Origin: an uncultured Oscillospiraceae bacterium
GTDB lineage: Bacteria; Bacillota; Clostridia; Oscillospirales; Oscillospiraceae
DNA: 64,000 bases
Reading direction: 5' to 3'
NCBI GenBank assembly: GCA_944385365.1
Contig: CALWWW010000007.1
Coordinates: 40,337-104,336 of the forward strand
Position numbers and translations under genes: made by a program. Shown in pieces: positions 31,998 through 64,000 of the stretch; position 1 is the first letter of the stretch; each line of letters starts with the position of its first letter. Under the pieces are notes generated by a model, which was not told where the DNA came from, searched no databases, and saw only the letters and a list, made by a program, of their open reading frames with translations.

Positions 31998-32159
31998 GGC
32001 AGCTCTCCCATCATTTGGCAAGAGTACTCGGCGAGAGATTTTGCTTCCAATGAAAGTATGAAAAGCGAAGGAATACTGGATGTATTTCGAGCGTTTCATA
32101 CTGCACAGTGGGAGCAAAAGAGCCGCCGAGGAACGCAGACACAATGATGGGGAGTTGCC
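31998..32159 (-). repeat. Covarying hairpin element B, copy 1
   Basis: 162 nt, read on the - strand. Outer arms GGCAACTCCCCATCATT and AATGATGGGAGAGCTGCC pair with a bulge. Inside are the family constants GTGTCTGCG at the 5' side and CTCTTGCC at the 3' side, the near-direct repeats CTCGGCG/CTCGCCG, a stem AGTATGAAA/TTTTCATACT, and a tip hairpin AATAC-ATCCA-GTATT. Copies at 34,450 and 63,656 share the constants but have different, still complementary stems. Confidence 0.75.
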
Positions 32160-32784
32160 GATATAAAGATGCACCCGACAACATAAGACTGTTGCCGGGT
32201 GCTAGATAACTTCAATATTCAAATTGTTACTCCTATTCTCTTTGTGTACCTTATTTCTACTGTTTACGGAATGAAACGTAGTCGCGTAATCGATACCATC
32301 CGGTAAGGACCATTGCGGGAAAACACCGAACATCTATATCCAACAAACAACAAAGATGGAATCGGCTGTGATCCACTCGAGGTACAAAAGCGATGTGTGG
32401 ATATTCGTACTTGATTGAGATTACAGTCTGACAGGCCAACTGCCCCAAATGGAATCCAGCAACTTCACATGGTGGTCAGCGACGGCAGCTCTTCGCGCTG
32501 GGAAACAAATTGTCTCGGGTACGTCTGATAAAGGGTGTTGTTCCATCGTTCACAAACCCATTGCCGATACACGGCCATCACGCCCGGTCAATTCTTCTTC
32601 ATCGGTAATCCGACACACGGAACATACGGTGCGACCTACAAGATCAGGACTGCTGTGGCTGCGCTATTCCCAACTGCATGCCACCAAAAGGGATTGGGGT
32701 TGGACTGCGGCTGTTTAGTACATTGGACTCTCCTCCTTTTCTGGTTTGATGTGCTTGTTTGTTGTTTGTGCCTTCAGTATATCA
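32160..32784. other. Gene-free spacer, nothing assignable
   Basis: No frame has a ribosome site together with a plausible product. A 13-bp imperfect hairpin (GCACCCGACAACA / TGTTGCCGGGTGC) lies at about 32,170-32,203. Base composition is lower in GC than in the neighbouring genes, so this may be old degraded mobile DNA, but I see no transposase remnant that I can name. Confidence 0.4.
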
Positions 32785-32820
32785 GAAAAATCCTGCTTGT
32801 CAACGGGTGACAAGCAGGAT
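32785..32820 (-). terminator. Terminator of the selenium operon (yedE-tusA-DUF3343)
   Basis: ATCCTGCTTGTCA / TGACAAGCAGGAT, perfect 13-bp stem around ACGGG. In the leftward direction it is followed by TTTTT. Confidence 0.88.
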
Positions 32821-32884
32821 CTCTGTTCTGTACAAAATGACGGGCATCAAATTGTTTAACTTGATGCCTTTGGTGAAAATGCTG

Positions 32885-33127
32885 TCATTGACTGTCGCAG
32901 GAGAACAAAAGTCCATAGGAGCCGTCCTGTTCCTCGTAGACTGCTTCCAGGTCCGCGTCCAGCAGGGCGCGGCAGGGGCCGGCGGCTTCGTAGCGGACAC
33001 AGGTGCCGCAGGAGGAGCTGAGGGCACGGGGCACCGGCGTCATCCGGGCGGCAATATGGTGGTCCTGGAGGGTCTGACAGGTGAGCATGGCGCTCAGATG
33101 GGTGTGGAAGGTGGCGACGTACTGCAT
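32885..33127 (-). CDS. DUF3343 protein, putative Se/S carrier
   Basis: An 80-residue protein of the DUF3343 family, often annotated as a putative selenium/sulfur carrier-like protein. It shows the family pattern: an N-terminal beta strand with YVATFHTHLSAMLTCQTLQD, then VPRALSSSCGTCVRYEAAG with the conserved CGTC cysteines, and FSCDSQ at the end. It is the last gene of the leftward yedE-tusA operon, one base after the TusA-like gene, and family members are typically found beside yedE and selD. Handling of persulfide or perselenide by the CGTC cysteines is inferred. Confidence 0.8.
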   Translation of the reverse strand: MQYVATFHTHLSAMLTCQTLQDHHIAARMTPVPRALSSSCGTCVRYEAAGPCRALLDADLEAVYEEQDGSYGLLFSCDSQ

Positions 33128-33128
33128 A

Positions 33129-33335
33129 TCACTTGGTCAGCGTCAGGGCGAATTCTTCGTTGTCCTGCTCCTGCACGGAGACGCGGTAGCCCTGGTTCGA
33201 GGCGTAGCGGGTGATATTTTCCACGGCGCACTGGTTGTCCACCAGCACTTCCACCGTGGCGGGCGCGCCGTCCTTGACGGCCTTTTGCACCATGACCACG
33301 GGCATGGGACAGGCGAGACCTCTTGCATCGATCAT
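33129..33335 (-). CDS. TusA/YedF-like sulfurtransferase
   Basis: A 68-residue SirA/TusA-fold protein. The start MIDARGLACPMPVVMVQKAV contains the CPMP motif whose cysteine (C9) carries persulfide or selenide in this family. The rest (ATVEVLVDNQCAVENITRYA, then YRVSVQEQDNEEFALTLTK) completes the small alpha/beta fold. It is a stand-alone TusA domain; in other Clostridia it is fused in the selenium protein YedF. The start overlaps the yedE stop (ATGA), so the two are coupled. Probable role: passing reduced selenium or sulfur on. Confidence 0.85.
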   Translation of the reverse strand: MIDARGLACPMPVVMVQKAVKDGAPATVEVLVDNQCAVENITRYASNQGYRVSVQEQDNEEFALTLTK

Positions 33336-34426
33336 TTCTGCTTTCCTCCTCTGTAGAGATTGGCGATGGAGATGACGGCCAGGACCACCAGGCCCAGGAC
33401 CACGGCAATGCGTCCGGCGGGGGCCACGCCGCCAGCGGTGAAGACGCCGTCGGTCATGGCGTCGGCGTTGCCGGCCAGACCGAAGTTGTGGGCAAAGGCT
33501 GCGCCCACGATCATGCCCAGGATGGTCACGGCGCTGTCGCCGTTGCCCTCACCGGCCAGGATCAGCTGCCGCAGGGGGCAGCCGCCCAGGAGAATGGAGC
33601 CCCAGCCCGCCAGGGCCATGCCCAGAAAACTCCACACATAGTCGTGATGGGCCACGGGCTGCACAGCGTTAGCAGGGTTAAACTGGCCCAGAATCAGATT
33701 GCCGATCAGAACCGTTACAAAGATGGCCAGGAAGCCGGTCAGCAGGTGGAAATCCTTGAACAGCACCGTGTCGCGGATACCGCCGGCCATGCACAGGCGG
33801 CTGCGCTGGGCCAACGCGCCCACCACGAGACCGGCAATCAGGGCGATGGGAAGCGCGGCGTGCATGGAGCCGGGGCCGGTTTCAGAGAAGTAGAGAAACG
33901 CGGGCTTGATCAGCAGCAGCACCAGCAGGAAAATCATAATGGCTGGGAGGACGAAGCCCTCGGACTTTTTGACCTTGTAGGCACGGCCAAGAGAAAATCC
34001 TTTTTTCAGGAAGAGGACGCCCACCAGAATGCCGACGATGAAGCCCAGCAGGCCCGCAATGGCAGTCAAGTCGCCGCCGCCCAGCCGCAGGACCATCCGC
34101 AGGGGGCAGCCCAGGAAGGCCAGAGCGCCCACCATGACAAACGCGCCGATGACGAACCGCAGGGCGGGGGTGGAACCGGCGCGGCCCGTAAATTCACCCC
34201 GGACCAGGGCCATAATGCAGGCGCCCAGGACGAGACCGATGATCTCGGGACGGATGTACTGGACCTTTGCCGCCGTGTGGAGACCCACGCCGCCGGAGAT
34301 ATCCCGGAGGAAACAGGCGATACAGAAGCCCATATTGCCGGGGTTGCCGGCCTTGGTCAGCACCAGGGCCGCCAGGCCCGTGACGACGCCCGTGAGAATC
34401 ACGAGCCACGGTATTTTTTTTGTCAT
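33332..34426 (-). CDS. yedE: YedE-like putative selenium transporter
   Basis: A 364-residue integral membrane protein of the YeeE/YedE family, here the selenium-associated subgroup. I start at ATG 34,426 (complement), with AAGG six bases upstream. About nine to ten hydrophobic helices are present. Two family signatures repeat: FLGCPLRMVLRLGGGDLTAI and LLGGCPLRQLILAGEGNGDS, each with the GCPLR motif, and the pore cysteines CIACFLRD and SRLCMAGGIRD. Related YeeE proteins take up thiosulfate. Import of a selenium species is inferred from the operon with TusA-like and DUF3343 genes and from nearby selD. Confidence 0.85.
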   Translation of the reverse strand: MTKKIPWLVILTGVVTGLAALVLTKAGNPGNMGFCIACFLRDISGGVGLHTAAKVQYIRPEIIGLVLGACIMALVRGEFTGRAGSTPALRFVIGAFVMVGALAFLGCPLRMVLRLGGGDLTAIAGLLGFIVGILVGVLFLKKGFSLGRAYKVKKSEGFVLPAIMIFLLVLLLIKPAFLYFSETGPGSMHAALPIALIAGLVVGALAQRSRLCMAGGIRDTVLFKDFHLLTGFLAIFVTVLIGNLILGQFNPANAVQPVAHHDYVWSFLGMALAGWGSILLGGCPLRQLILAGEGNGDSAVTILGMIVGAAFAHNFGLAGNADAMTDGVFTAGGVAPAGRIAVVLGLVVLAVISIANLYRGGKQK

Positions 34427-34449
34427 TGTCATCCTTCTTTCTTTTTTCA

Positions 34450-34515
34450 GGCAGTCCCACACCATTGTGTCTGCGGCCCTCGCCGAGTGCTCTTGCCAAA
34501 TGGTGTGAGCCTGCC
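34450..34515 (+). repeat. Covarying hairpin element B, copy 2 (short form)
   Basis: 66 nt. Outer arms GGCAG..CACACCAT and ATGGTGTG..CTGCC pair. The loop keeps the family constants GTGTCTGCG and CTCTTGCC but has only one CTCGCCG, whereas copies 1 and 3 have two with about 86-95 bases between them. It lies within the predicted 5' leader of yedE (transcribed leftward). Confidence 0.72.
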
Positions 34516-34519
34516 TTTT

Positions 34520-34562
34520 GTTATTCTTGTATGAGAATAACGTATCGTACAGGAAAAAGCAA
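34520..34562 (-). promoter_or_regulatory. yedE promoter with 22-bp operator
   Basis: The palindrome GTTATTCT-N6-AGAATAAC (34,520-34,541) contains the leftward -10 TATTCT (34,534-34,539). The -35 TTGCTT (34,557-34,562) is 17 bp away. The same palindrome, -10 and spacing occur at 37,610-37,652. It resembles ModE boxes (GTTAT...ATAAC) and is probably bound by the ModE-like regulator of this cluster. Confidence 0.72.
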
Positions 34563-34622
34563 GTTTTACTTTCCTGTTCCAGTGTGTTACACTGGAGAAA
34601 ATCACAGGAGGAGGAATCCCGT

Positions 34623-35765
34623 ATGGAGACAGTCTATCTGGACAACGCCGCCACATCCTTTCCCAAGCCGCCCCAGGTGCCCCGGCAGATGGCCCGGTAT
34701 CTGGAGGAGGTGGGGGCCACGGTGAACCGGTCCGTCTACGGCGCAGCCCAGGCGGCGGGCATGGTGGAGTTGCGTCTGCGGCAGCGGCTGTGCCGCCTGT
34801 TCCACTTTGGGCCAGTGACCCATGCCGTGCTGACGCCGGGCAACACCTGGGGCCTGAATCTGATGCTGGCGGGCTTTCTGCGGCCCGGGGACCACTGCGT
34901 GGTGTCCTCCATGGAGCACAACGCCGTCATGCGGCCCTTGCAGGCGCTGGCCAAACAGGGCGTGACGTTTACGAGAGTGCAATGTGACGCCTTGGGGCGG
35001 CTGGAACCTAAGGATGTGGAGCGGGCCTTGCGGCCCGACACCCGTCTGGTGGTGCTGGCCCACGGCTCCAACGTGTCCGGCACGGTCCAGGACGCGGCGG
35101 CGGTGGGGGAGATCTGCCGCCGGTATGGAGTTCCGTTCTGTCTCGACGGGGCCCAGACGGCGGGCCATCTGCCGGTGGATTTCACTTCTCTGGGCCTGTC
35201 GGCCCTGTCGGTGCCGGGCCACAAGGGCTTGCTGGGGCCGTCGGGCATCGGGGCGTTACTGCTGGACCCGGCTTTTGCCCAACGGCTGACGCCCACGGTT
35301 TCCGGCGGCACCGGCAGCGCGTCCGATTCCGAGGAGATTCCCGCCTACATGCCGGACCGATTCGAGCCGGGGACCCCCAACGTACCGGGTATTTACGGTC
35401 TGGAAGCGGCCCTGGCGTTTTTGGAGGAAACGGGCGTGGAGACCGTCGCCGCCCACGACCGGGCGTTGACGGCCCGGTTCCTGGACGGCGTCCGGTCCAT
35501 TCCCACTGTTTCCGTCATCGGTCCCGATGCGGTGGAGGGCCGGGTGGGGGTGGTCAGTCTCGATTTTCCGGGCCGGGACAACGCCGAGGTGGCGGAAGCA
35601 CTGGAGCGGGAGTATGGGATTCTTACCCGCTGCGGGCTCCACTGCGCCCCGTCGGCCCACAAGACCCTGGGGACGTTCCCCAGGGGAACCGTGCGGTTCT
35701 CCTGGGGCTGGTTCTCCACGGAAAACGATATCGACCGGGCCTTGGAAGCCGTCAGAGCAGTTTGA
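34623..35765 (+). CDS. Class V aminotransferase, cysteine desulfurase (selenium-linked type)
   Basis: A 380-residue PLP enzyme from ATG 34,623 with CAGGAGGAGG upstream. It takes sulfur (or selenium) from cysteine or selenocysteine. Landmarks: YLDNAATSFPKPPQV at the N terminus, LTPGNTWGLNLMLAGFL, SMEHNAVMRPL, the aspartate/histidine LDGAQTAGHLPVDF, and the PLP lysine in SVPGHKGLLGPSGIG. The catalytic loop cysteine lies in ILTRCGLHCAPSAHKTLG, a form typical of the EF2568-like desulfurase family found with selD and yqeB. Its 3' end overlaps selD tail to tail by 14 bases. Confidence 0.85.
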   Translation: METVYLDNAATSFPKPPQVPRQMARYLEEVGATVNRSVYGAAQAAGMVELRLRQRLCRLFHFGPVTHAVLTPGNTWGLNLMLAGFLRPGDHCVVSSMEHNAVMRPLQALAKQGVTFTRVQCDALGRLEPKDVERALRPDTRLVVLAHGSNVSGTVQDAAAVGEICRRYGVPFCLDGAQTAGHLPVDFTSLGLSALSVPGHKGLLGPSGIGALLLDPAFAQRLTPTVSGGTGSASDSEEIPAYMPDRFEPGTPNVPGIYGLEAALAFLEETGVETVAAHDRALTARFLDGVRSIPTVSVIGPDAVEGRVGVVSLDFPGRDNAEVAEALEREYGILTRCGLHCAPSAHKTLGTFPRGTVRFSWGWFSTENDIDRALEAVRAV

Positions 35766-36789
35766 TGCAGGGGCCGTCCGTATACTCGCCCACGACGCCC
35801 ACCCGCTGGGCGCTGGGGACCACCGGCTGCAAGGCTGCCAGCAACGCGTCGGCGTCGGCGGGGTCCACGGCCATGAGCAGACCGCCCGCCGTCTGGGGGT
35901 CGTAAAGCATATCCTGAACGGCCAGGGGCACGTTGCCGCCGTCTACGGCACATTCAGCAAATTTCCGGTTGCGGTACATGCCCTCCGGCAGAATGCCCAT
36001 CTCCGCCAGCTCCAGCGCGGCGGGAATCAGGTCCATGGCGGCGGTGTCCACGGTCACCGAAACATCGCTGCCCTGGGCCATCTCCAGCAGGTGGCCCAGG
36101 AAGCCGAAGCCCGTCACGTCGGTGCAGGCGTGGACGTTGTATTGCACCATCTGGTCCCGGGCGCTTTTGTTCAGCGTCGTCATCAGCTTGTGGGCCAGGG
36201 CAAGGGCGTCGGCAGGGCACAGATCGGCCTTGGCCGCCGTGGTCAGAATGCCGATGCCCAGGGGTTTCGTCAGCAGCAGCACGTCGCCGGGTTTTGCCCC
36301 GCTGTTGGTGAGCATCTTGTCCGGGTGGACAAAGCCCGTGACGGCCAGACCGTATTTGGGCTCCGGGTCCAGAATGCTATGGCCGCCGGTGATGATGGCC
36401 CCAGCCTCGTAAACCTTCTCATAGCCGCCCCGCAGCAGCTGGTGAACGGCGTCCTTGGGCATCTTTTCCGGTACGCACAGGAGATTCAGCGCCAGTTTCG
36501 GATCGCCGCCCATGGCGTAGACGTCGGACAGGGCGTTGGTGGCGGCAATCTGGCCGAATAAATAGGGGTCGTCGGCAATGGGCGGGAAAAAGTCCACGGT
36601 CTGGACCAACGCCAGCTCGTCGGAAATCCGGTACACCGAAGCGTCGTCGGATTTGTAGAAGCCCACCAGCAGATTTTCGTCCCGATGGACCAGCAAGCCC
36701 TCCAGCAGCTGGGCCAGAACGCCTGCGCCCACCTTTGCGCCGCATCCGGCACAGGAGGCCAGTTTCGTCAGTTTGACTTCCGATTCCAT
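35752..36789 (-). CDS. selD: Selenide, water dikinase
   Basis: A 345-residue enzyme making selenophosphate from selenide and ATP. The N terminus ESEVKLTKLASCAGCGAKVG holds the catalytic pair C16 and K19 in AGCGAK. The codon is TGC, so this SelD uses cysteine and not selenocysteine. ATP/metal binding: VQTVDFFPPIADDPYLFGQI, NALSDVYAMGGDPKLALNLL and GGHSILDPEPKYGLAVTGFV. It is cotranscribed behind yqeB (ATG directly before its end), without selA/selB in the window. That pairing points to the selenium-cofactor trait of molybdenum hydroxylases. Confidence 0.95.
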   Translation of the reverse strand: MESEVKLTKLASCAGCGAKVGAGVLAQLLEGLLVHRDENLLVGFYKSDDASVYRISDELALVQTVDFFPPIADDPYLFGQIAATNALSDVYAMGGDPKLALNLLCVPEKMPKDAVHQLLRGGYEKVYEAGAIITGGHSILDPEPKYGLAVTGFVHPDKMLTNSGAKPGDVLLLTKPLGIGILTTAAKADLCPADALALAHKLMTTLNKSARDQMVQYNVHACTDVTGFGFLGHLLEMAQGSDVSVTVDTAAMDLIPAALELAEMGILPEGMYRNRKFAECAVDGGNVPLAVQDMLYDPQTAGGLLMAVDPADADALLAALQPVVPSAQRVGVVGEYTDGPCIKLL

Positions 36790-37587
36790 TTATATCCCGC
36801 CTTTCTTCGATGCAAAATGGAGAATGGCTTCCAGAACGCCGCCGCCCACGGCCAACGCCTTGTCGGAAGCACAGAAACAGTGGTCCAGGGCACAGCGGGG
36901 GTCCACGTCGCCGGATTTCATGCCCTTGTGGACCGGGGTGCCGTCGGACAGCAGTCCCCGGAGGATACCGCCGATGGTGCAGACCATGGGCACGCCGTCC
37001 ACGGTGGCCGCCACGTCTCCGGCTTCCACCGTATCGCCGATGGCCCGGACGCAGCGGAACACGCCGTCGGCGGGAGCCCGCAGAACCCGTTCCCCGGCAA
37101 AGCCGCCGATGAGACCGGGAACGCTGGTGTTGGGCTGGGCGCTGCCGTCGTAGATGACCCGGCCCAGATAGTGGCCCCGCATGGTCTCCACCACGGCGTG
37201 GCAGTCCACACCGGCGGTGAAGCCGGGACCCGCCGCCACCACAATGGGGGCGTCGGTGATTTTGGTGCCCAGATTCCGCTTGGCCAGAATGACGTCGGCC
37301 ACGGCGTCGGGGTGCAGGGCGGCGATGGCCGTGCCTTCCGGGTCGGCCAGAATGGGAATGTGGCCCTCGGCCAGAACGGCGGCGGCCTGATCGGGCGTTT
37401 CAATGGCTACGGCGGTGACATCCTCCACCGTGCAGCGGCCATGGACGATGGCTTCGGAAAAACAGACGGTGCGGCGGATGGCCGTGGGGTGTGGCAGATC
37501 GGTCATGACCACCGACAGCCCGGCCCGGTGGAGCCGCAGTGCTGTACCGGTGGCCAGATCGCCCGCGCCGCGAATCAATACCAGCAT
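36790..37587 (-). CDS. yqeB: YqeB, selenium-dependent molybdenum hydroxylase maturation protein
   Basis: A 265-residue protein of the EF2563 family, always found with selenium-dependent molybdenum hydroxylases and selD. I start at ATG 37,587 (complement) with GAGGAAG upstream, giving MLVLIRGAGDLATGTALRLH, a Rossmann-like opening. Further conserved blocks are VDCHAVVETMRGHYLGRVIY, GIAGERVLRAPADGVF-like and ILRGLLSDGTPVHKGMKSGD with DVDPR. It ends directly at the selD start, so the two form an operon. Exact chemistry is unknown; it is thought to help place selenium at the Mo cofactor. Confidence 0.88.
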   Translation of the reverse strand: MLVLIRGAGDLATGTALRLHRAGLSVVMTDLPHPTAIRRTVCFSEAIVHGRCTVEDVTAVAIETPDQAAAVLAEGHIPILADPEGTAIAALHPDAVADVILAKRNLGTKITDAPIVVAAGPGFTAGVDCHAVVETMRGHYLGRVIYDGSAQPNTSVPGLIGGFAGERVLRAPADGVFRCVRAIGDTVEAGDVAATVDGVPMVCTIGGILRGLLSDGTPVHKGMKSGDVDPRCALDHCFCASDKALAVGGGVLEAILHFASKKGGI

Positions 37588-37609
37588 AAAAACTTCCTCA
37601 TTTCGTTTC

Positions 37610-37652
37610 GTGATTCTTTTGTAAGAATAACACTGATCTGGCCGGAGGTCAA
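37610..37652 (-). promoter_or_regulatory. yqeB-selD promoter with 22-bp operator
   Basis: GTGATTCT-N6-AGAATAAC (37,610-37,631) covers the leftward -10 TATTCT (37,624-37,629). The -35 TTGACC (37,647-37,652) is 17 bp away. It matches the yedE operator at 34,520 in length, flanks and position relative to the -10. Confidence 0.72.
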
Positions 37653-37655
37653 CGG

Positions 37656-37684
37656 TTGACGGCGGGAAAAAGCCGTGGTACACT
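37656..37684 (+). promoter_or_regulatory. Promoter of the ModE-like regulator; predicted leaderless start
   Basis: -35 TTGACG (37,656-37,661), 17-bp spacer, -10 TACACT (37,679-37,684). The ATG at 37,691 is 7 bases after the -10 end, where transcription should begin, and no ribosome site precedes it. Confidence 0.65.
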
Positions 37685-37690
37685 ACACCT

Positions 37691-38056
37691 ATGAAACAGA
37701 CGGAATTACACCCTGTGGTGCGGATACAGCTTTATACGGATGACAAGTGCTTCGGGCCTGGCATCGCCCAGCTGCTGGAGCTGGTGGCGGAGCGGAAGTC
37801 CCTGCGGGCGGCGGCCCAGTCCATGGGTATGGCCTATTCCAAGGCCTGGACCGTGGTGCGCCGCTGTGAGGAATCGCTGGGGTACCCCCTGCTGCTGTCG
37901 TCCACCGGTGGCCGCCATGGCGGCGGCGCGGAACTGACCGACGAGGCCCGGACCATGCTGGCAGGCTACCGGGCCTATTGCCGCGCCCTCAATGAGGCGG
38001 CGGAACGGCTGTTTCCGGACTATTTTCCCGGCTCCACCAATCCCGACGGACAGTGA
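37691..38056 (+). CDS. ModE-like winged-helix regulator (single DNA-binding domain)
   Basis: A 121-residue protein corresponding to the N-terminal ModE/LysR-type winged helix without the molybdate-binding (MopI) domains. Sequence blocks: VRIQLYTDDKCFGPGIAQLL, then ERKSLRAAAQSMGMAYSKAW (helix-turn-helix), TVVRRCEESLGYPLLLSSTG (wing) and GGRHGGGAELTDEARTML, all characteristic of this family. The SMGMAYSKAW turn is highly conserved. It is divergent from yqeB-selD and likely binds the GTTATTCT/AGAATAAC operators at 34,520 and 37,610. Without a sensor domain, its signal is unclear. Confidence 0.85.
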   Translation: MKQTELHPVVRIQLYTDDKCFGPGIAQLLELVAERKSLRAAAQSMGMAYSKAWTVVRRCEESLGYPLLLSSTGGRHGGGAELTDEARTMLAGYRAYCRALNEAAERLFPDYFPGSTNPDGQ

Positions 38057-38106
38057 CGGCGTTTTGAAACGCTGCAACACGCCGCCGGGGACGGGCCTGC
38101 ATTGCT

Positions 38107-38133
38107 GAGCGCTGCCGCGGCGGCGCTCTTTTT
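38107..38133 (+). terminator. Terminator after the ModE-like gene
   Basis: AGCGCTGCC / GGCGGCGCT with a minimal loop, followed by CTTTTTCTT. Confidence 0.7.
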
Positions 38134-38151
38134 CTTGTGACGGAGGAAGTT

Positions 38152-38742
38152 ATGGTACGCATTCGACTGGCGCGGGAATCGGATATTCCCGGCATTCTGG
38201 ACATCTACGGGCCGTACATTTTGCATACGCCCATCACCTTTGAATACACCGTTCCCACGGTGGAGGACTTTACCAACCGGTTCCGGACCATCACCGCCGT
38301 CGGCCCCTGGCTGGTGGCCGAGGAGGACGGGAACCTGTTGGGCTATGCCTATCTGGACCGGGCTTTTGAGCGGGTGGCCTACCGCTGGGCCGCCGACTTG
38401 TCGGTGTATCTGCGGCCCGAGGCCGCCGGAAAGGGCTTGGGCCGCGTCTTTTACACACTGTTGGAGCGCATGGGGGCCATGCAGGGATATCAGGTGCTGT
38501 ACGGTCTGGTGACCAGTGAAAATGAGAATAGCTGCCGGTTCCATGAGGCCATGGGCTACCGGCTGACGGCGGTGCTGCCGGATTGCGGCTACAAGCTGGG
38601 CCGGTGGCACGGCGTCCACTGGTACGAGAAGCGGCTGTGCGCCCCCTGTGACCCCGGCGCGTTTCCCAAGGCCGCGCCGGATATGGATTGGTCCGGCCTC
38701 TGTCTGGACGGTGTGCCCGATGGCTGGGAGGTGGCGCTGTGA
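38152..38742 (+). CDS. GNAT N-acetyltransferase (phosphinothricin acetyltransferase-like)
   Basis: A 196-residue acetyl-CoA-dependent acetyltransferase from ATG 38,152, with GGAGGAA upstream. The layout matches the Pat/YncA branch of the GNAT fold: IRLARESDIPGILDIYGPYI at the start, then TPITFEYTVPTVEDFTNRF, WAADLSVYLRPEAAGKGLGR with the acetyl-CoA pyrophosphate loop (RPEAAGKGLG), YGLVTSENENSCRFHEAMGY and LGRWHGVHWYEKRL. Family members acetylate phosphinothricin, methionine sulfoximine or other amino-acid-like substrates. The real substrate here is unknown. It overlaps the following GTPase start, indicating coupling. Confidence 0.85.
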   Translation: MVRIRLARESDIPGILDIYGPYILHTPITFEYTVPTVEDFTNRFRTITAVGPWLVAEEDGNLLGYAYLDRAFERVAYRWAADLSVYLRPEAAGKGLGRVFYTLLERMGAMQGYQVLYGLVTSENENSCRFHEAMGYRLTAVLPDCGYKLGRWHGVHWYEKRLCAPCDPGAFPKAAPDMDWSGLCLDGVPDGWEVAL

Positions 38743-40649
38743 ATGTGACGCTGGGGATTCTGGCCCAGGTGGACGGCGGCAAAACCACCCTGTCGGAACA
38801 GCTGCTGTACCGGGGCGGGGCGCTGCGGTCCGTGGGCCGGGTGGATGACGGCGGGGCCTGCATGGATTTTACCGCCGTGGAGCGGGCCAGGGGCATTACG
38901 GTGTTTTCGGCCCAGGCCGTGTTTTCCCACGGGAATAACCGGTATTTTCTCCTGGATACGCCGGGCCACGGCGACTTTTCGCCGGAAATGGAACGGTGTC
39001 TGGCGGCGCTGGACGCGGCGATTCTGGTGATTGGCGCGTCGCTGCCCATTCCGGCCCGGACGGAACGGCTGTGGCAGCTGTTGGAGCGGCGGAATATCCC
39101 CGTCCTCTGCTTCCTCAATAAAACCGACCTGGCCGGGGCCGACCCCGACGGCGTTTTGGAACAGTTGGGCCGGTGGAGCGACGGGTTCTGCGAGTTCAGC
39201 GGCGGACTGACCGACGAAGTGCGGGAGCAGGTGGTCATGACCGACGACGCCCTGTTGGAATCGTATCTGGAGGGGACGCTGGACGACGGCGCGTGTTGGG
39301 AAGCCGCCGGGCGGGCCTTCCGGGTGCGGCGTCTGTTTCCGGTGTACCGGGGCAGCGCCCTGAAAGGGGAGGGCATCGACGAACTGCTGGACGGTCTGGA
39401 CCGGCTGTGCCGGACGGACTACGACCCCGACGGCTCTTTGGAGCTGCTGGCCTATCAAATCCGGCGGGACAAGCAGGAGCGGGTTTGCTGCTGCAAGATT
39501 TTGTCGGGAACGCTGCGGCCCCGGCAGATGGTGAACGGCGAAAAGGTCCACCAGCTGCGCCGCCAGATGGGCGGCAAATGGGAACAGATTGCCGAAGCAC
39601 AGGCCGGGGAACTGGTGTCGGTGACGGGCCTTTCCGACCTGCGGGCCGGAGACCGGGCAGGGGAGACGCTGCTCCATCGGGAACCGGCGGCCCCGCCGCC
39701 GCTGCTGGTGGAGGTCCGGGCCGACGCGGTCCCCACCCGTCTTTTGGAGATATTCCGGCAGCTGGAGGACGAGGAGCCCACCCTGGCCGTCCGGTGGAAT
39801 GAGGGGCTCCATCAGCTCCATGTGGCCGTGGCCGGAGAGATGCAGCTGGACGTGCTGACCCAGACGGTCAAAGAGCGGTACGACCTGGACGTGACCTTTG
39901 GGGAACCGGCGGTGGCCTATCGGGAGACCATTGCAAAACCGGTCCGGGGCTGCGGCCACTTTGAACCCCTGCGCCATTACGCGGAGGTCCAGCTGCTGCT
40001 GGAGCCCAACCCCAGAGGGGCGGGCGTCACCTTTGAAAGCCGCTGTTCCACCGATGATCTGGCGCTGAACTGGCAGCGGCTCATTGAAACCCATGTGTTG
40101 GAAAAGGCACATGTGGGGGCCATGCTGGGCGCGCCCCTGACCGATGTCAATGTGGTGCTCCTGGGGGGCCGGGCCCACGATAAACACACCGAGGGCGGCG
40201 ATTTCCGGCAGGCTGTTTACCGGGCCATCCGCCACGGCCTGTTCCACGCGGAAAACCTCGTGTTGGAGCCCTGGTACCGGTTTACCATCCAGGCCGACCC
40301 GTCCACGGCGGCCAAACTGCAAACGGAGATTTCCCGCATGGGCGGCACCTGCGACCTGCCGGAGACGGTGGGCGCCTGGACGCGGCTGACGGGCCGATGC
40401 CCCGTGGCCCCCATGCTGCCGTTCAGCCGGGAGTTTGCCACGAAAACCCGCGGCGGCGGCAGCTTGCAGCTGGAGCCGGACGGTTATGAGGTCTGTCCCG
40501 ATGGGGAGGCTGTGGCCGCCGCTTCCGGATATGACCGGGAGCGGGATACGGAGAATCCCACCGATTCCATTTTTTGCAGCCACGGCGCGGGACATAGCGT
40601 ACCCTGGCAGGAAGCGGCAAACCATATGCACGTAACAGTCCGGGAATAA
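38739..40649 (+). CDS. EF-G/TetM-like translational GTPase
   Basis: A 636-residue GTPase related to ribosome-protection proteins (TetM/TetO) and EF-G. I start at GTG 38,739, which overlaps the acetyltransferase stop, six bases after GGAGGT. G motifs: G1 AQVDGGKTT (residues 9-17), where most family members have AHVDAGKTT; G2 ERARGITVF; G3 DTPGHGDF with the catalytic His; G4 NKTD. Domains III-V follow (LHVAVAGEMQLDVLTQ, ETIAKPVRGCGHFEPLRHYA). It is shorter and more divergent than classical Tet proteins, so resistance should not be assumed. Repeat A2 begins three bases after its stop. Confidence 0.8.
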   Translation: MNVTLGILAQVDGGKTTLSEQLLYRGGALRSVGRVDDGGACMDFTAVERARGITVFSAQAVFSHGNNRYFLLDTPGHGDFSPEMERCLAALDAAILVIGASLPIPARTERLWQLLERRNIPVLCFLNKTDLAGADPDGVLEQLGRWSDGFCEFSGGLTDEVREQVVMTDDALLESYLEGTLDDGACWEAAGRAFRVRRLFPVYRGSALKGEGIDELLDGLDRLCRTDYDPDGSLELLAYQIRRDKQERVCCCKILSGTLRPRQMVNGEKVHQLRRQMGGKWEQIAEAQAGELVSVTGLSDLRAGDRAGETLLHREPAAPPPLLVEVRADAVPTRLLEIFRQLEDEEPTLAVRWNEGLHQLHVAVAGEMQLDVLTQTVKERYDLDVTFGEPAVAYRETIAKPVRGCGHFEPLRHYAEVQLLLEPNPRGAGVTFESRCSTDDLALNWQRLIETHVLEKAHVGAMLGAPLTDVNVVLLGGRAHDKHTEGGDFRQAVYRAIRHGLFHAENLVLEPWYRFTIQADPSTAAKLQTEISRMGGTCDLPETVGAWTRLTGRCPVAPMLPFSREFATKTRGGGSLQLEPDGYEVCPDGEAVAAASGYDRERDTENPTDSIFCSHGAGHSVPWQEAANHMHVTVRE

Positions 40650-57107: not shown

Positions 57108-57773
57108 ATGGATCATAAAGAAATCCTCCGCCATGTGGACCACACCCTGCTGACGCAGACGGCCACCTGGGAAGAAATCCGCAAAATCTGCGACGACGCC
57201 GTGGAATACAGCACCGCTTCCGTCTGCATTCCGCCCTGCTACGTGAAAAAAGCCGCCGAGTACCTCCGGGGCCGGATTCCCGTCTGCACCGTTGTGGGCT
57301 TCCCCAACGGCAACATGACCACCGCCGCCAAGGAGTTCGAGACCAAGGATGCCCTGGCCAACGGCGCAGAAGAGATCGACATGGTCATCAACATCGGTTG
57401 GCTCAAGGACGGCCGCTATGAGCTGGTGGAAAACGAAATCCGCACCCTCAAGGCCGCCTGCGGCAAGAAGATTCTCAAGGTCATCATCGAGACGTGTTTG
57501 CTGACCGACGAGGAAAAGATCAAAATGTGCGAACTGGTCACCAAGGCCGGTGCGGACTATATCAAGACCTCCACGGGCTTCTCCAAGGCCGGAGCTACGT
57601 TTGCCGATATTGAACTGTTCGCCAAGCACATCGGCCCCAACGTGAAAATGAAGGCCGCCGGCGGCATTTCCTCCCTGGAGGACGCCGAGAAGTTCCTGGA
57701 GCTGGGCGCGGACCGTCTGGGTACCAGCCGCATCGTAAAGCTCATCCGCCAGGAAGAGGCCACGGGCTATTGA
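57108..57773 (+). CDS. deoC: Deoxyribose-phosphate aldolase
   Basis: A 221-residue class I aldolase cleaving deoxyribose-5-phosphate to glyceraldehyde-3-phosphate and acetaldehyde. It starts [20 protein letters not shown], typical of Deo[41 protein letters not shown] with the catalytic Asp, [15 protein letters not shown], and the Schiff-base lysine in [15 protein letters not shown] are all present, followed by [20 protein letters not shown] with the second catalytic lysine. It is full length and complete. It draws on products of the phosphorylases and the mutase in the same operon. Confidence 0.95.
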
Positions 57774-57787
57774 GCGGGGGAACGCGT

Positions 57788-58207
57788 ATGGACAAAAGCC
57801 GCATTCAGGAACTGATTCAGCGGGCCATGGAACAGATGCGCTTTTCCTATGTGCCCTATTCCAATTTCCGGGTGGGCGCGGCGCTGCTGACCAGGGACGG
57901 TAAGATCTATACGGGCTGCAACATTGAGAACGCCGCCTATGGTCCCACCAACTGCGCCGAGCGGACCGCCTTTTTCAAGGCCGTCAGCGAGGGTGAACGC
58001 CAGTTCGACGCCATCTGCATCGTGGGCGGTCCCGACGGTGTCCTCAAGGGCTATACGGCCCCCTGCGGCGTCTGCCGTCAGGTGATGATGGAGTTCTGCA
58101 ACCCGGAGACCTTCCAGATCATTCTGGCCGTCTCCACCGAGGACTACCGCATCTACACCCTCAAAGAGCTGCTGCCCCTGGGCTTCGGCCCGGACAACCT
58201 GGCATAA
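57788..58207 (+). CDS. cdd: Cytidine deaminase
   Basis: A 139-residue zinc enzyme converting (deoxy)cytidine to (deoxy)uridine. ATG 57,788 follows GCGGGGGAA. Landmarks: [20 protein letters not shown], then [20 protein letters not shown] (the TNCAE zinc-cysteine and catalytic glutamate) and [14 protein letters not shown] with the PCxxC zinc cysteines. Its length is normal for the homotetrameric type. It channels cytidine into the uridine phosphorylase step. Confidence 0.95.
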
Positions 58208-58232
58208 CTTCCTATCGCAAAGGGGATACGCA

Positions 58233-59423
58233 ATGAAACGATACAACCGCATTTTTACCATTGTGCTGGACTCCCTGGGCATCGGGCAGATGCCCGACGC
58301 CGCCCGCTTCGGCGACGAGGGCGCCGACACCCTGGGTCACATCCTCGACCATATGGGCACCCTGGACATGCCCAATCTGCGGAAGCTGGGTCTGCTGGAC
58401 CTGCACACCGGCGGTCAGATGACCGGCACCGGCGCGCCCATGGCCCGCTGCCTGCGGCTGTCCGAGGCCAGCAACGGCAAGGACACCATGACGGGCCATT
58501 GGGAAATGATGGGCATTTACACGGAAAAGCCCTTCCAGACCTTCACCGATACGGGCTTCCCGCCGGAACTCATTGCCGAGCTGGAAAAGCGCTGCGGCAA
58601 GCGGGTCATCGGCAACAAGAGCGCCAGCGGTACGGCCATCATTGACGAGCTGGGCCTGGAAGAGATCAACACCGGGGCCATGATCGTCTATACCTCCGCC
58701 GATTCGGTGCTGCAAATCTGCGGCCACGAGGAGACCTTCGATCTGCAAAACCTGTACCGCTGCTGTGAAATCGCCCGGGAGCTGACGCTGCGGGACGAGT
58801 GGAAGGTGGGCCGCGTCATTGCCCGGCCCTATGTGGGCAACAAGCCCGGTGAGTTCCGCCGTACCAGCAACCGCCACGACTACGCATTGAAGCCCACGGC
58901 CCCCACGGCCCTCAATGCGCTGAAGGACGCCGGTCTGGATGTCATTGCCATCGGCAAGATCAACGACATTTTCTGCGGCGAGGGCGTCACGGAGTCCTTC
59001 CACTCCGACAGCTCCGTCCACGGCATGGAACAGACCATCGAAGCGGCGGGCCGGGACTTCAAGGGCCTGTGCTTCGTCAATCTGGTGGATTTCGACGCCC
59101 AGTGGGGCCACCGGCGCAACCCGGAGGGCTACGGCCACGAGATTGAAAAGTTCGACAAAAACCTGGGCGTCCTGATGGAAAAGCTGGGGGAGGACGATCT
59201 GCTGCTGCTGACGGCGGACCACGGCAACGACCCCACGTTCCACGGCACCGATCACACCAGAGAGTATGTGCCCCTGCTGGCCTGGTCCAAGTCCATGGAC
59301 CGGGGCGGCCTGCTGGAGCAGCAGAACAGCTTTGCCGTCGTCGGCGCAACCATTGCCGACAACTTCGGCCTGGCCATGCCCCAGGGCTCCATCGGCACTT
59401 CGATTCTCAGCCAGCTGGGTTAA
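58233..59423 (+). CDS. deoB: Phosphopentomutase
   Basis: A 396-residue manganese enzyme of the alkaline phosphatase superfamily that interconverts (deoxy)ribose-1- and 5-phosphate. Metal and phosphate sites: [20 protein letters not shown] with the first Asp, [15 protein letters not shown] with the phosphorylated Thr, [39 protein letters not shown] and [19 protein letters not shown] with the remaining metal ligands. It links phosphorylase products to DeoC. Full length, in the operon between cdd and the Crp-like regulator. Confidence 0.95.
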
Positions 59424-59456
59424 ACGCCCCATTGCCCGCAGAAGGAGGGATGATCC

Positions 59457-60185
59457 GTGGGCTACAAAACCATCGACGAGGCCCTGCCCTTCCTGAAAGG
59501 GGTGGACCCGGACCGGCAGGCCCAGTTCCGGGAGTATTTCAAAACCGCGCCCCTGTGGCTGATGGAGTCGTTCCAGATTGAGGAGATGGAGAAAAACACC
59601 GTCTTCATTCGGGAGAACGACCCGGTGGATTATATCTACTTCGTGGGAAAAGGCATTATCGAGGCCATTGAATACCGGTTTTTCGGTATCACCTATGAAT
59701 TTATGCGCTTTGATAAGGTCTACGCCATGGGCGGCATGGAGTTCATCATGGATTTGGACACCTACAAGACCACCCTGCGGACCGTCACCCGCTGCACCAT
59801 GGTCAAGCTGACCCGCAGCGCCTTTGAGCGGTGGATGCGCAGCGATATCCAGGCCCTCAAGCACGAGGCCTGTCTGGTGGGCGAGTACCTGCTGGAACAG
59901 GGCCGCAAGGGCCGGGCCCTGCTGTTTTTGCAGGGGTCCGACCGGCTGGCCATGCTCTTTGTGGAGCGCTACGAGCGGTACGCCAGAAACGGCGTCCTCC
60001 ATGTCCGCGGCGGCCAGCAGTCCCTGTCCAACGCCACCGGGCTGTGTCTCAAAACCATCAACCGCTCCATCAAAAAATTTGCCGAACAGGGATTGATCAC
60101 CAAGGAGGGTACCAAGCTCTCCGTCTGCCACGACCAGTATCTGGCTTTGAAACAGATTGTGGCCAATGTGGTGGATTCTGAATAA
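59457..60185 (+). CDS. Crp/Fnr family transcriptional regulator
   Basis: A 242-residue regulator. GTG 59,457 is seven bases after GGAGGG. The N-terminal part is a cyclic-nucleotide-binding-type beta roll (EKNTVFIRENDPVDYIYFVG), but the phosphate-binding RGExxGE motif is replaced (DKVYAMGGMEFIMDL), so the effector may not be cAMP. A long helix and the C-terminal winged helix follow (GGQQSLSNATGLCLKTINRS, then IKKFAEQGLITKEGTKLSVC). It has no FNR cysteines. Being inside the operon, it may sense a nucleoside or pathway product and activate the operon promoter. Confidence 0.85.
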   Translation: MGYKTIDEALPFLKGVDPDRQAQFREYFKTAPLWLMESFQIEEMEKNTVFIRENDPVDYIYFVGKGIIEAIEYRFFGITYEFMRFDKVYAMGGMEFIMDLDTYKTTLRTVTRCTMVKLTRSAFERWMRSDIQALKHEACLVGEYLLEQGRKGRALLFLQGSDRLAMLFVERYERYARNGVLHVRGGQQSLSNATGLCLKTINRSIKKFAEQGLITKEGTKLSVCHDQYLALKQIVANVVDSE

Positions 60186-60203
60186 AGAAATGAGGTTTTT
60201 TCC

Positions 60204-61025
60204 ATGAATCCTGTCTATGAGAAGCTGATGACCTGCCTCAAGAGCGTGCAGGAAAAGGTCTCGTTCCAGCCGGAAGTGGCCCTGATCCTGGGCTCCGGCC
60301 TGGGCGACTACGCCGACGAAATCCGCGTGGAGCACACGGTGGATTACAACACCATCGAGGGCTTCCCCGTGTCCACCGTGGCCGGTCACAAGGGCCGCTT
60401 CGTCTTCGGCTATGTGGAGAATGTGCCCGTGGTCATCATGCAGGGCCGCGTCCACTTCTACGAGGGCTATCCCATGTCCGACGTGGTGCTGCCCACCCGG
60501 CTCATGGGCCTGCTGGGCGCGAAAAAGCTGGTGCTGACCAATGCCGCCGGCGGCGTCAACTTCGATTTCCGCCCCGGTGATTTTATGATGATCACCGATC
60601 AGATTGCCACCAACGTGCCCAGCCCCCTGCTGGGCGCCAACCTGGAGGAGCTGGGCCCCCGGTTCCCCGACATGAGCGAGGTCTACAGCCGCCGGATGCA
60701 GGATGCCATCCGCGCCGTCTCCAAGGAGCTGGAGATTCCCGTCCGGGAGGGCGTGTACCTCCAGCTGACCGGCCCCAGCTATGAGACCCCCGCCGAAATC
60801 CGCATGTGCCGGACGCTGGGCGCCGACGCCGTGGGCATGAGCACCGCCTGCGAGGCCATGGCCGCCCGCCACATGGGCATGGAAATCTGCGGCATCTCCT
60901 GCATCACCAATCTGGCCGCCGGTATGACCGAGGGCCGTCTGGACCATGCCGAGGTCCAGGAGACCGCCGACCGGGTGGCCAAGCAGTTCAAGAAGCTGGT
61001 CACCGGCGTCATCACCCATATTTGA
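60204..61025 (+). CDS. punA: Purine nucleoside phosphorylase (trimeric, inosine/guanosine type)
   Basis: A 273-residue phosphorylase of the trimeric PNP family. Landmarks: VALILGSGLGDYADEI (phosphate site), VDYNTIEGFPVSTVAGHKGR with the phosphate His, VPVVIMQGRVHFYEGYPMSD, LTNAAGGVNFDFRPGDFMMI, LTGPSYETPAEIRMCRTLGA with the Glu and Tyr of the base site, and AVGMSTACEAMAARHMGMEI. It cleaves inosine and guanosine. Together with udp it covers purine and pyrimidine nucleosides. It is the last gene of the operon, followed by a hairpin terminator. Confidence 0.93.
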   Translation: MNPVYEKLMTCLKSVQEKVSFQPEVALILGSGLGDYADEIRVEHTVDYNTIEGFPVSTVAGHKGRFVFGYVENVPVVIMQGRVHFYEGYPMSDVVLPTRLMGLLGAKKLVLTNAAGGVNFDFRPGDFMMITDQIATNVPSPLLGANLEELGPRFPDMSEVYSRRMQDAIRAVSKELEIPVREGVYLQLTGPSYETPAEIRMCRTLGADAVGMSTACEAMAARHMGMEICGISCITNLAAGMTEGRLDHAEVQETADRVAKQFKKLVTGVITHI

Positions 61026-61043
61026 CCGCTTTTGCACGGAAAC

Positions 61044-61074
61044 GAGCGCCGGCAGCCGCAGGCGCTCTATTTTT
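61044..61074 (+). terminator. Terminator of the nucleoside operon
   Basis: GAGCGCC / GGCGCTC around GGCAGCCGCA, followed by TATTTTTA. Confidence 0.75.
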
Positions 61075-61075
61075 A

Positions 61076-61408
61076 TCAACCGGCCCCCGGCGGGAGTTTT
61101 TCAACGCCTGCAGCCGAAAAAACGTGGGAAAGACAACGGTACAATCTAAAAAAATGGTGTAAATTTGTCGTTAAAAATTTGTGTTATGCGGGTTTGCGGA
61201 AATCGGCATCCCCGGTGCCGTCCTTACAGAAAAAATGGTGTGAAATCTGTGTCAATGGGTTAGAATGGAAAAATTGCAAAAAACCATGGCATAATGTGCA
61301 ACAGTATGCTACAATCGTATGGGACAAATGCCTCACTTGCTTATCATACAATATTCTGATCCGCAGGCGGGACGATGTCCAATCGCAGAGAGCGAGGAGC
61401 GTTCAAAG
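61076..61408. other. Upstream region of the chemotaxis gene with two long direct repeats
   Basis: No gene seen. AAAAAATGGTGTAAATTTGT (about 61,149) and AAAAAATGGTGTGAAATCTGT, written here in two parts as AAAAAATGGTG and TGAAATCTGT (about 61,230), are near-identical direct repeats about 81 bp apart. TACAAT near 61,310 is a possible -10. A regulator binding both repeats is conceivable. Confidence 0.4.
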
Positions 61409-63574
61409 ATGAATGAGAAAAGACGAAACGGAATCCGTTCCATCCAAAGTTCCATGATTTTGGTGGTCGTTCCCATTGTGGTGGCTGCCATGGTGCTGTT
61501 GTCACTCATCGGCCATATGTCGGCGGTGAAAATCATCCGCAGCGGCTCGGAACGGGAAATGACCCAGTCCCTGGATGTTGCCACCGAGTATATCAGCGGC
61601 GCCCTGACTAAAAATCAGTTGGTGGCGGAGACGCTGGCTCGGGCGGTGGAGTCCGTCCACAAACAGCAGGAGGCCCTGCAGGCTTCCCAGGGAGTCACGT
61701 ATGCCATGGATGAGGCCATTTATCGCGGACTTCTGACGGATTTTGTCGACAGCAATGACGACACCTTCGGCGGTGGCATCTGGTTTGAGCCCTACGCCCA
61801 CCGGCCGGACCGGGAGTATTATTCGCCCTACTGTATGCGGGAAAGCGGCGTGGTGCAGTATGTGGACGACTACACCCTGGGAGACGGCATCTACTATACG
61901 GATCAGAGCTGGTATACTTCCGCCACCAACACCACCCAGAGCGTTGTGTGGTCGGAGCCGTACTATGACAGCTTCGCACAGATTTCCATGGTGACGGCTT
62001 CGGCGCCCATCTACCAGAACGGTGTGCTGCTGGGTGTGGCGACGGCGGACGTGGATTTGACCAGTATGCAGCGGATGGTGACCGATCTGGACATTGTTGC
62101 CGACGGCCGTGCCTTCCTGCTGGACGCCAACGGCGTCTACATTGCCCATGAGGACAGCGCCAAGCTGCTGGAGCAGAACATTCTGGAAGAGTCCAACGCA
62201 TCTCTGGCGCAGCTGGGCCGGGAGATTCTGAAGAATGGCACCGGCACCGGCTCCTATACCGAAAATGGCGAGACGTATCTGGCCTGGTACCAGCAGATTC
62301 CCGAAAGCGGCTGGTATATCGTTTCCACGGCCTCCGAAGATGCGCTGATGGCCAGCACCGACGCCCAGGGCACGACGCTGACCTGGAGCTGCATCGGCTT
62401 CTCCGTGGCGCTGTTTGTGGTGCTGCTGGTGTACCTGCGCTATCGCATTATCCATCCCCTCAACGCCCTGGACCGCACCGCCCGGCAGATTGCCGCCGGT
62501 GATCTGTCTGTCTCGGTGGACCACAATGCAAAATATGAGTTCGGCCGGGTCAACGCCTCTCTGGAGACCATGGCGGCCCAGCTGCGGCTGTACATCGACT
62601 ACATCCGGGAGATTTCCCAGGTGCTGGGCCAAATGGCCGACGGCAACTTCGATTTCAAACTGCACAACCGGTATACCGGTGAGTTCGCACGGGTCCAGGA
62701 GGGCCTGCTCAATACGCAGAAGCGCATTTCCGACACCCTGGGCTCCATTTATACGGCGGCCAGCGAGGTCAGCGCCGGTGCCGAGCAGATGGCCAACGGC
62801 GCACAGATTCTCAGTCAGGGCGCCACGGAGCAGGCCAGCTCCATCGAACAGCTGGCGGCGGCGGTTCAGGGCGTGTCCCGTGAGATCGGTGAGAACGCCC
62901 GCCGCACCGAAGAGGCCAGCAACCACGGCCGTACCGCCGGAGAGCATCTGGGCCAGAGCCAGGAGAAGATGCGGGAGCTGGTGGCGGCCATGGCGGAGAT
63001 CAAGGAGACCTCCGCGGAGATTCAGGGCATCATCAAGACCATCGACGATATCGCGTTCCAGACCAACATTCTGGCCCTGAATGCGGCGGTGGAAGCCGCC
63101 CGGGCCGGTATGGCGGGCAAGGGCTTCGCCGTGGTGGCCGACGAGGTGCGCAGCCTGGCCGGAAAGTCGGCGGAAGCCTCCCAGAGTACCCAGGAAATGA
63201 TTCAGAAGTCCATCCACGCGGTGGAAAACGGCAGCGAACTGGCAACCAGCGCCGAAAAGATGCTGGAGGAGACGGCCAAGTATGCCAACGAGATCATCGA
63301 AACCATCGGCGGCATTGCCGAAGCTTCGACCCAGCAGGCCCAGGAGATCACCCAGATCACCCAGGGCTTGGACGAGATTTCCAGCGTTGTGCAGACCAAC
63401 TCCGCCACGGCGGAGGAGAGCGCGGCGGCCAGCCAGGAGCTGACGGGCCAGGCCACGCTCCTCAAGAATCTGACCAAGCGGTTCCGTCTGGCCAACCGGT
63501 CCATGGACGACGAGCCGGAGCAGGTTCCCGCCGCAGCCAGCAAGTCCTCCGCCGACAGCTACGAAAAATACTGA
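61409..63574 (+). CDS. Methyl-accepting chemotaxis protein with dCache-type sensor
   Basis: A 721-residue transmembrane receptor from ATG 61,409 with GAGGAG upstream. TM1 (about 17-38: [20 protein letters not shown]) and TM2 (about 322-343: [19 protein letters not shown]) bracket a ~280-residue outside domain. That domain has the dCache pattern, for example [40 protein letters not shown] and [20 protein letters not shown] follows ([20 protein letters not shown]), then the signalling coil with the conserved tip [20 protein letters not shown]. CheA/CheW would bind the tip. The ligand is unknown. No chemotaxis kinase or flagellar gene is in view. Repeat A4 follows its stop. Confidence 0.92.
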
Positions 63575-63622
63575 GTGTTGTAAAACAACAGTTGCCGTCG
63601 CGGAATGGCCGTAATAGAACAA

Positions 63623-64000
63623 AGATAAAAGTTTTACTCGATTTTTTTTCTGACGGGGCTGCCCGCCACCCGTGTGTCTGCGGTGCTCGCCGGGCCTTTT
63701 CCGCCATAGCTGCGGTGTGGTTTCTTGCCATACATCCAGTATGGCTGCGAACTCACACCTTGCTCTGACGAAAAATTCCTCGCCGACCACTCTTGCCAAC
63801 GGGCGGCGGGCAGCCCAAAATCGCGGGGTCCAGGGGCAGCGCCCCGGTCGCGCCTCGCAAGGCGCGAAATACCCGCCCGCCGCAGCGGGCGAAACTCCCG
63901 CTGGCCGCAGCCAGCGAAACACCCCATCGTCCCCAAGCGCCCGTCGCAACGGGCGCAATCCCCAGGGCGTAAGCCCTAAGGCCGCCGTCCCCACCCCATA
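63623..64000 (+). repeat. Modular hairpin repeat A, copy 4, interrupted by element B and cut by the window end
   Basis: The head GATAAAAGTTTTACTCGA is followed by T8 and then the 161-nt element B3 before AAAATCGCGGGGTCC resumes. Body: GCGCCTCGCAAGGCGC, GCCCGCCGCAGCGGGC, GCTGGCCGCAGCCAGC, spacer ATCGTCCCCAA, GCCCGTCGCAACGGGC, AGGGCGTAAGCCCT. The tail GGCCGCCGTCC is cut at 64,000. It lies 48 bases after the chemotaxis gene, same direction. Confidence 0.88.
63656..63816 (+). repeat. Covarying hairpin element B, copy 3, nested in repeat A4
   Basis: 161 nt with perfect terminal arms GGGCTGCCCGCC / GGCGGGCAGCCC, extended by one mismatch and CCCGT/ACGGG. Family constants GTGTCTGCG and CTCTTGCC are present. 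Two CTCGCCG direct repeats (63,686-63,692 and 63,779-63,785) flank an inner part with stem GGTGTG/CACACC and tip CCATAC-ATCCA-GTATGG. It occupies the loop of the A4 head hairpin. Confidence 0.78.

Follow-up and report, generated by a model that had tools for sequence, protein, structure and literature searches.

What kind of element leaves several copies that differ in their stems and still fold? The question is raised by three short palindromic repeats in a 64,000-nucleotide stretch of DNA from an uncultured Oscillospiraceae bacterium (assembly GCA_944385365.1, contig CALWWW010000007.1, positions 40,337 to 104,336 of the forward strand; hereafter the window). A preliminary description took this repeat, here called the B element, for either a structured RNA or a single-stranded mobile element recognised by its shape. 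We identify the three repeats, B1, B2 and B3, as copies of a non-autonomous IS5-type element, a miniature inverted-repeat transposable element (MITE), based on terminal inverted repeats, 4-bp target duplications, empty sites and insertion sequences (ISs) of the IS5 group that have similar ends. We consider it highly probable that B elements are moved in trans by IS5-group transposases and that their ~114-nt core evolves as a single-strand fold. A gene-less mobile element seems to carry an RNA, a role that we infer; a plain MITE does not account for the conserved interior.

Three copies of a mobile element

The genome that holds the window (G000) is a draft assembly of 2.58 Mb in 64 contigs, 91% complete. 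A covariance model of the element (R1) was built from an alignment (A1) of 44 distinct full copies of the genus, drawn from three genomes; a second model (R2) describes the core. Scanning the window with R1 at E<=1 recovers exactly three loci, as the preliminary description had it, a fourth row being B3 on the other strand. Below, the reader's strand is that on which the repeats were first read, and the opposite strand is its complement.

31997..32160, - strand (reader's strand): B1, full-length element, R1 121.3 bits
about 32143-32160 and 31997-32015: terminal inverted repeats of B1
32020..32135, + strand (better-pairing strand): core of B1, R2 97.8 bits, fold z -11.7
34449..34516, + strand (reader's strand): B2, deletion derivative of 68 nt, R1 54.4 bits (93 positions of the model absent)
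63656..63816, + strand (reader's strand): B3, full-length element within a larger repeat (family A), R1 194.5 bits
63681..63794, - strand (better-pairing strand): core of B3, R2 115.2 bits, fold z -9.1

All three copies fold, as had been claimed: each beats 200 dinucleotide shuffles on either strand, with z-scores for B1, B2 and B3 of -8.8, -3.75 and -6.6 on the reader's strand and -11.7, -5.8 and -9.1 on the opposite one. The outer stems vary between copies yet pair, and those of B1 and B2 resemble, by eye, diverged (eroded) versions of a single terminal repeat, AGGCAACACCGCACAATT. Two further details need correction. The supposedly shared constant CTCGCCG is present in B1 in the 3' arm only, the 5' arm reading CTCGGCG. 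The inner stems and the ATCCA loop are both missing from B2, which retains the outer internal loop and a terminal repeat at either end, has its core deleted and is not matched by R2 in the window scan; its - strand folds better.

Family-wide, R1 matches share a single architecture, with terminal inverted repeats, commonly AGGCAACACCGCACAATT...AATTGTGCGGTGTTGCCT, and a related interior. The element is ~161 bp long (copies about 150-163 nt), ends in terminal stems and is too short for a transposase gene. Dozens of copies are found in each of two genomes, G000 and G006, the former with 53 core matches (B2, its core deleted, is excluded). The strict pattern of the earlier finding occurs 25 times in G000, where the reversed control pattern occurs 0 times, and is present in four of 40 sampled genomes, G000 included; its match in G032 (L026) has no surrounding element, is likely due to chance and was set aside.

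Exact 4-bp target duplications stand at the repeat boundary of 16 of 81 free-standing copies, where 1.69 are expected from mispaired flanks, and seven of the 16 have the form YTAR. The 2-bp match at the neighbouring offset (offset 0) is also elevated (29 against 10.6 expected), as are, slightly, some further 2-bp and 5-bp offsets. These counts exclude rows shorter than 145 nt, rows near locus ends, flank duplicates and seven distinct copies that a simple string test placed in family A. An empty site is seen at one locus: the insertion at L144 in G000, with CTAA duplicated, is absent from the related genomes G006 and G002, in which the same flanks join at a single CTAA. Mobility, as first suggested, is borne out; its mode resembles IS5-type transposition, with terminal repeats and 4-bp duplication, rather than recognition of a folded single strand by shape. 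Insertion into terminator hairpins, considered for B2 and for the flank in family A, was rejected in view of the terminal repeats and duplications.

Other arrangements bear on individual copies. A truncated copy sharing the flank of B1 is seen by eye in G006 (L053). One copy in G047 (L146:3314-3472) appears by eye to be a hybrid, in which one B type seemingly inserted at CTAA in the terminal repeat of another and a joining deletion followed. Three copies lie within 1.9 kb at L100 in G236 (255-417, 1501-1663 and 1956-2118). Plasmids searched with the 6.2 kb that surround B1 and B2 gave no match. Family A, which contains B3 (window 63628-64000; also L001-L025 and L060 1-200), consists of (T)AAAAGTTTTACTCGATTTTTTTC and AAATCGCGG, a hairpin and, after it, an array of short CGC..CGCA..GCG hairpins whose stems vary. 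A B element lies within its first hairpin in the case of B3 and, by eye, of 19 further strict-pattern copies; the family A flank is common to 20 of the 25 strict-pattern copies (a by-eye count, with L023 placed by its right flank only). Family A also occurs without a B element, at L022, L046 and L060.

A fold kept on one strand of the core

The preliminary description read compensatory change as the mark of a selected structure, and our data agree. In the genus alignment A1, with its 44 distinct copies, two-sided change is seen at 30 of 56 pairs, a number that 0 of 500 shuffles reach and that compares with 5-12 in slid controls. Further copies with unpaired stems were to be the counter-evidence; the larger copy set did not refute pairing. 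Across genera, 95 rows were reduced to 85 copies by leaving out ten (rows that repeat a counted place on its opposite strand, L182, whose place is that of L199, and a short and a hybrid copy in L146), and these to 59 non-redundant cores at 85% identity. The cores were aligned with MAFFT, with no model fitting, on the reader's strand (A6) and on the opposite strand (A7). RNAalifold predicts 27 pairs at -16.75 kcal/mol in A6, with compensatory change in 26, and 39 pairs at -42.09 kcal/mol in A7, with two-sided change in 38. In A7, 91.2% of paired cells can pair, against 65.5% after letter shuffling and 36-52% with slid pairing, and the covariation score is 0.661, against 0.186 for shuffled and 0.087-0.182 for slid controls.

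The opposite strand pairs better partly because an A·C on one strand is a G·U on the other. On the reader's strand, the non-Watson-Crick pairs of A1 comprise 152 A·C cells and 59 G·U cells (44 of the 59 from one invariant U.G column), and A·C exceeds G·U in 40 of the 44 copies. Across genera (A6), the counts are 71 A·C and 52 G·U, or 70 and 21 minus one U·G-rich column; with column 39-84 dropped, 32 copies are A·C-rich, four G·U-rich and 23 tied. A similar lean is seen in the terminal stem, examined in 51 free-standing copies (A·C 39, G·U 17; 23 copies versus 6, with 22 ties). The opposite strand is also the more stable one in 58 of 59 cores, in all 44 genus copies and in all 53 full non-redundant copies. 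Shuffles of the same cores yield 4.6 of the mean strand difference of 13.3 kcal/mol; 56 of 59 cores exceed their own shuffle mean, 43 of 59 with z above 2. The wobble and fold tests rest on related sequences, and their p-values are optimistic.

On this favoured strand the core contains one small internal loop twice, in opposite orientations, with C-AA-G facing C-GCA-G. The two loops have the exact letters in 25 and 39 of the 59 cores, and the flanking pairs covary. The full element has what looks by eye like a third copy of the loop in its outer part, where GGCAAGAG faces CGCAGAC. The ATCCA loop, by contrast with its description as invariant, reads UGGAU (the complement of ATCCA) in 14 of the 59 opposite-strand cores and UUUGU in another 14, with others elsewhere. 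From covariation, wobble asymmetry and the conserved internal loops, we conclude that the core is selected as the fold of the strand complementary to the reader's, a conclusion that we hold, as part of the whole explanation, with high confidence. Of the initial alternatives, a structured RNA or a shape-recognised mobile strand, both the selected structure and the mobility stand; the strand on which the structure was read gives way to its complement.

The B element is a mobile palindrome, and an ordinary palindromic MITE, functionless inside, might keep its arms complementary through relatedness and through arm-to-arm hairpin correction at replication, a process that can mimic compensatory change. 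Such an element would also be expected to show the random insertion relative to gene orientation described below. Correction should, however, remove mismatches inside the hairpin. The AA/GCA loops nevertheless survive in different genera, and identical loop letters are seen in copies that come from other families in the class. Correction also has, we reason, no evident cause to favour G.U on one strand, and the asymmetry weakens this explanation, which we regard as improbable. Nor do we see why a role as double-stranded DNA would produce such a lean.

The reach of the core extends beyond the element. In drawn samples that include G000, and under strict filters, 170 of 400 family genomes have the ~114-nt core, and R2 at E<=0.001 finds it in 82 of 341 class genomes and in 20 of 348 phylum genomes, of which 16 lie outside the class. 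R1 matches in several families of the order cover about model positions 26-139 only; there the core is housed in inverted-repeat elements of other kinds, whose outer ends differ. At five of 20 order loci fetched, R1 also matches a second, inverted neighbouring hairpin. Two adjacent inverted cores occur at four of 23 divergent loci searched. Divergent copies retain loop letters such as AAGG, CGCAG, CAAG and AACG. It is possible, though we lean slightly against it, that the core is an ancient portable RNA common to many transposon families of the phylum, captured by, or moving among, elements whose ends are unrelated, either singly or as an inverted pair with one functional hairpin per strand. 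It would then be a selfish module whose AA/GCA-loop fold binds a conserved bacterial protein and aids persistence of its carrier.

A pattern scan of named genomes matched at least 119 stretches; the titles of the 80 matches listed are almost all Oscillospiraceae, Ruminococcus or other or unnamed Clostridia, with exceptions that include one Bacteroides and one Myxococcales metagenome bin. Among cultured hosts, R2 finds the core in Ruminococcus callidus ATCC 27760, R. flavefaciens FD-1 and Colidextribacter sp. OB.20. Five viral contigs (IMG/VR, L333-L337) carry the core, the match ending at the contig end in three. In the elements built of inverted hairpin pairs (L194-L213, L384, L386, L391 and L397), the terminal repeats resemble, by eye, the T-arm and 3' end of a tRNA, e.g. 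GGGTTCGACTCCCGTATGCCTA. Rfam 15 gives no match at the B loci of the window, nor in six loci at E<=5. In a scan of 14 divergent loci, the sole overlaps with a core, in L382 and L386, come from miRNA models that score below threshold; membership of an Rfam family was rejected for the loci scanned.

Strong covariation and conserved loops would also suit a riboswitch, a leader or another cis-regulatory RNA of the host, and one copy is suitably placed. B2 (window 34429-34516 region) is flanked by yedE, a selenium transporter gene (TIGR04112), and by a cysteine desulfurase family gene, and the yedE start codon lies ~20 nt beyond the end of B2 on the - strand, with B2 upstream. Gene orientation is random, however: the better-folding strand is co-directional with the upstream gene in 48 of 102 copies and with the downstream gene in 52 of 102, by simple picking of open reading frames. 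The 102 copies remain of 137 rows (A3, A4) after removal of 20 duplicate or opposite-strand rows and 15 with a short flank or missing neighbour, and a few orthologous pairs are left among them. Since orientation is random, the element is not a leader of particular genes, and the dozens of copies in each of two genomes argue in the same direction. We ruled out a cis-regulatory host RNA for lack of orientation bias, and give it next to no chance. Some open frame of at least 120 aa spans 44 of the 102 copies; in palindromes such frames are probably spurious.

IS5-group transposases and the selected molecule

An IS at L159 in genome G155 carries an open 351-aa transposase gene between the ends GGCAGCACCGCACAATT and TTCTGTGCGGTATTGCC, with CTAA on both sides. 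Its transposase scores 331.5 bits against the NCBIfam model IS5_4 (cut-off 140). Searched with this protein at E<=1e-20, 33 of 400 family genomes contain relatives. Thirty IS loci were fetched and 14 examined for ends; at nine of the 14, the ends of the two main B types were recognised by eye. Eight of the nine came from a script's two best end pairs, with 2-5 mismatches between ends, and for the ninth, L338, which is the L159 element, the script returned none. Ends like GGCAACACCGCACAA accompany transposases 71-100% identical to the query, and ends like GGAACCTCTGAATAAAT accompany transposases 47-48% identical to it.

We propose that an IS5-group transposase would act in trans at terminal inverted repeats of the GGCAACACCGCACAATT or GGAACCTCTGAATAAAT type, leaving a 4-bp duplication. 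The selected molecule would be RNA, probably made by read-through from a promoter flanking the copy, and the AA/GCA internal loops may form a binding or tertiary-contact motif read by a protein. That a host RNA-binding protein or nuclease recognises the folded transcript, making insertions tolerable or aiding spread of the element, is a guess that we rate as rather unlikely.

The selected form might instead be single-stranded DNA, a one-strand hairpin to which a transposase or a host factor binds in the course of transposition or replication. Under DNA energy parameters the strand-specific stability is likewise seen in 58 of 59 cores, and G000 has three matches to Y1-type transposases. The ends and target duplications are, however, like those of IS5 transposases, which cut double-stranded DNA; the core is also found with other outer ends; and two RAYT-like Y1 loci of G000, L060 and L061 (3.2-3.3 kb each), contain no B element, which rules out Y1/RAYT mobilisation as the main route. 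We consider a single-stranded DNA form quite improbable. The Y1 genes at these loci (L060, G000:C32:18409-18681; L061, G000:C11:41311-41556) seem by eye to contain small GTAG-type palindromes (GTAGGGCGGG...CCCGCC), as if REPs had entered the genes.

Several observations weigh against a MITE moved by IS5-group transposases with a core selected on one strand. No exact 4-bp duplication is seen at the tested boundary of 65 of the 81 free-standing copies. G000 yields no match to PF01609 and none to the L159 transposase, so that an autonomous IS5 partner was not found in this assembly (91% complete, 64 contigs). Co-presence of IS5 and B is not significantly associated: B occurs in 19 of 33 genomes with IS5 and in 151 of 367 others (Fisher p = 0.097; two genome lists matched by hand, assuming the same 400 family genomes). 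With column 39-84 kept, the per-copy wobble lean across genera vanishes (21 A·C-rich, 20 G·U-rich, 18 ties). Copies were gathered with a structure model, which favours well-paired ones, though the model came from the other strand, and the strand asymmetry was measured on B elements alone among palindromes. Strand specificity could also reflect a single-stranded DNA step. The preliminary description had also pointed to a protein encoded near intact copies as a possible recogniser of the hairpin; none was found among the IS5 and RAYT-like Y1 genes sought in G000, although neighbouring proteins were not systematically surveyed.

Relation to known elements and meaning

A literature search that included sequence strings found related kinds only and no description of the B element, supplements not being covered. 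The same holds for the accessible text, supplements aside, of PMC8040213, PMC2864571, PMC8632094, PMC11109978, PMC2267715, PMC2229807, PMC10969869 and PMC4596501. Hairpin-transcript MITEs, IS5-derived MITEs and mobile structured motifs are already known, and the B element, which could be among the 250 palindromic candidates (of 3161) from human microbiomes (PMC8040213), is therefore not without precedent.

ERIC/IRU, NEMIS/Correia, RUP (PMC2229807) and YPAL (PMC2267715) are bacterial MITEs that make long hairpin RNAs (see also PMC10969869). Like B, they are about 100-200 bp long and multicopy, with terminal repeats and target duplication, and their transcripts are long stem-loops; ERIC is listed with TA at its termini (PMC2229807). 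Unlike these, the B element is structure-conserved inside across the class, with strand-specific wobble, a repeated internal loop and several outer ends. The accessible text of the two papers makes no claim of such structural conservation, and the word 'compensatory' is absent from it (PMC2229807, PMC2267715). BrickBuilt, an IS5-derived MITE of Porphyromonas gingivalis, is similar in that its ends are common to IS5-family elements, in its case resident ones, and differs in that a conserved structured core is not mentioned in the text available (PMC4596501).

Another parallel is MRSC-65-2, a mobile or repeat structured motif with >20,000 representatives, from the class of mobile structured motifs in a 2024 survey (PMC11109978). 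It shares with B a single long stem, strong covariation and dozens of copies per genome; it is sometimes near a transposase gene, and inconsistent gene orientation marks its category. Its stated repeat, UYCCGG, occurs in only six of 59 B cores on one strand and five on the other, with two or more copies in one. The comparison uses the main-text description, and the survey could list the B element under another name (PMC11109978).

REP and REPIN sequences are multicopy palindromes, sometimes in inverted pairs, with RAYT transposases; B is unlike them in its absence from RAYT-like loci and in its terminal repeats and 4-bp duplications.

The usual view of MITEs is that they need nothing but their ends. 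In the B element, the interior is conserved in structure on one strand across a bacterial class while the ends vary, and whether a gene-free mobile element carries a working RNA, and which protein reads it, become directly testable questions. For RNA discovery, palindromic repeats carry the risk that the wrong strand is easily chosen, as happened with B. Abundant in gut Clostridia and without an Rfam match at the loci that were scanned, the family is relevant to both genome annotation and the discovery of RNAs.

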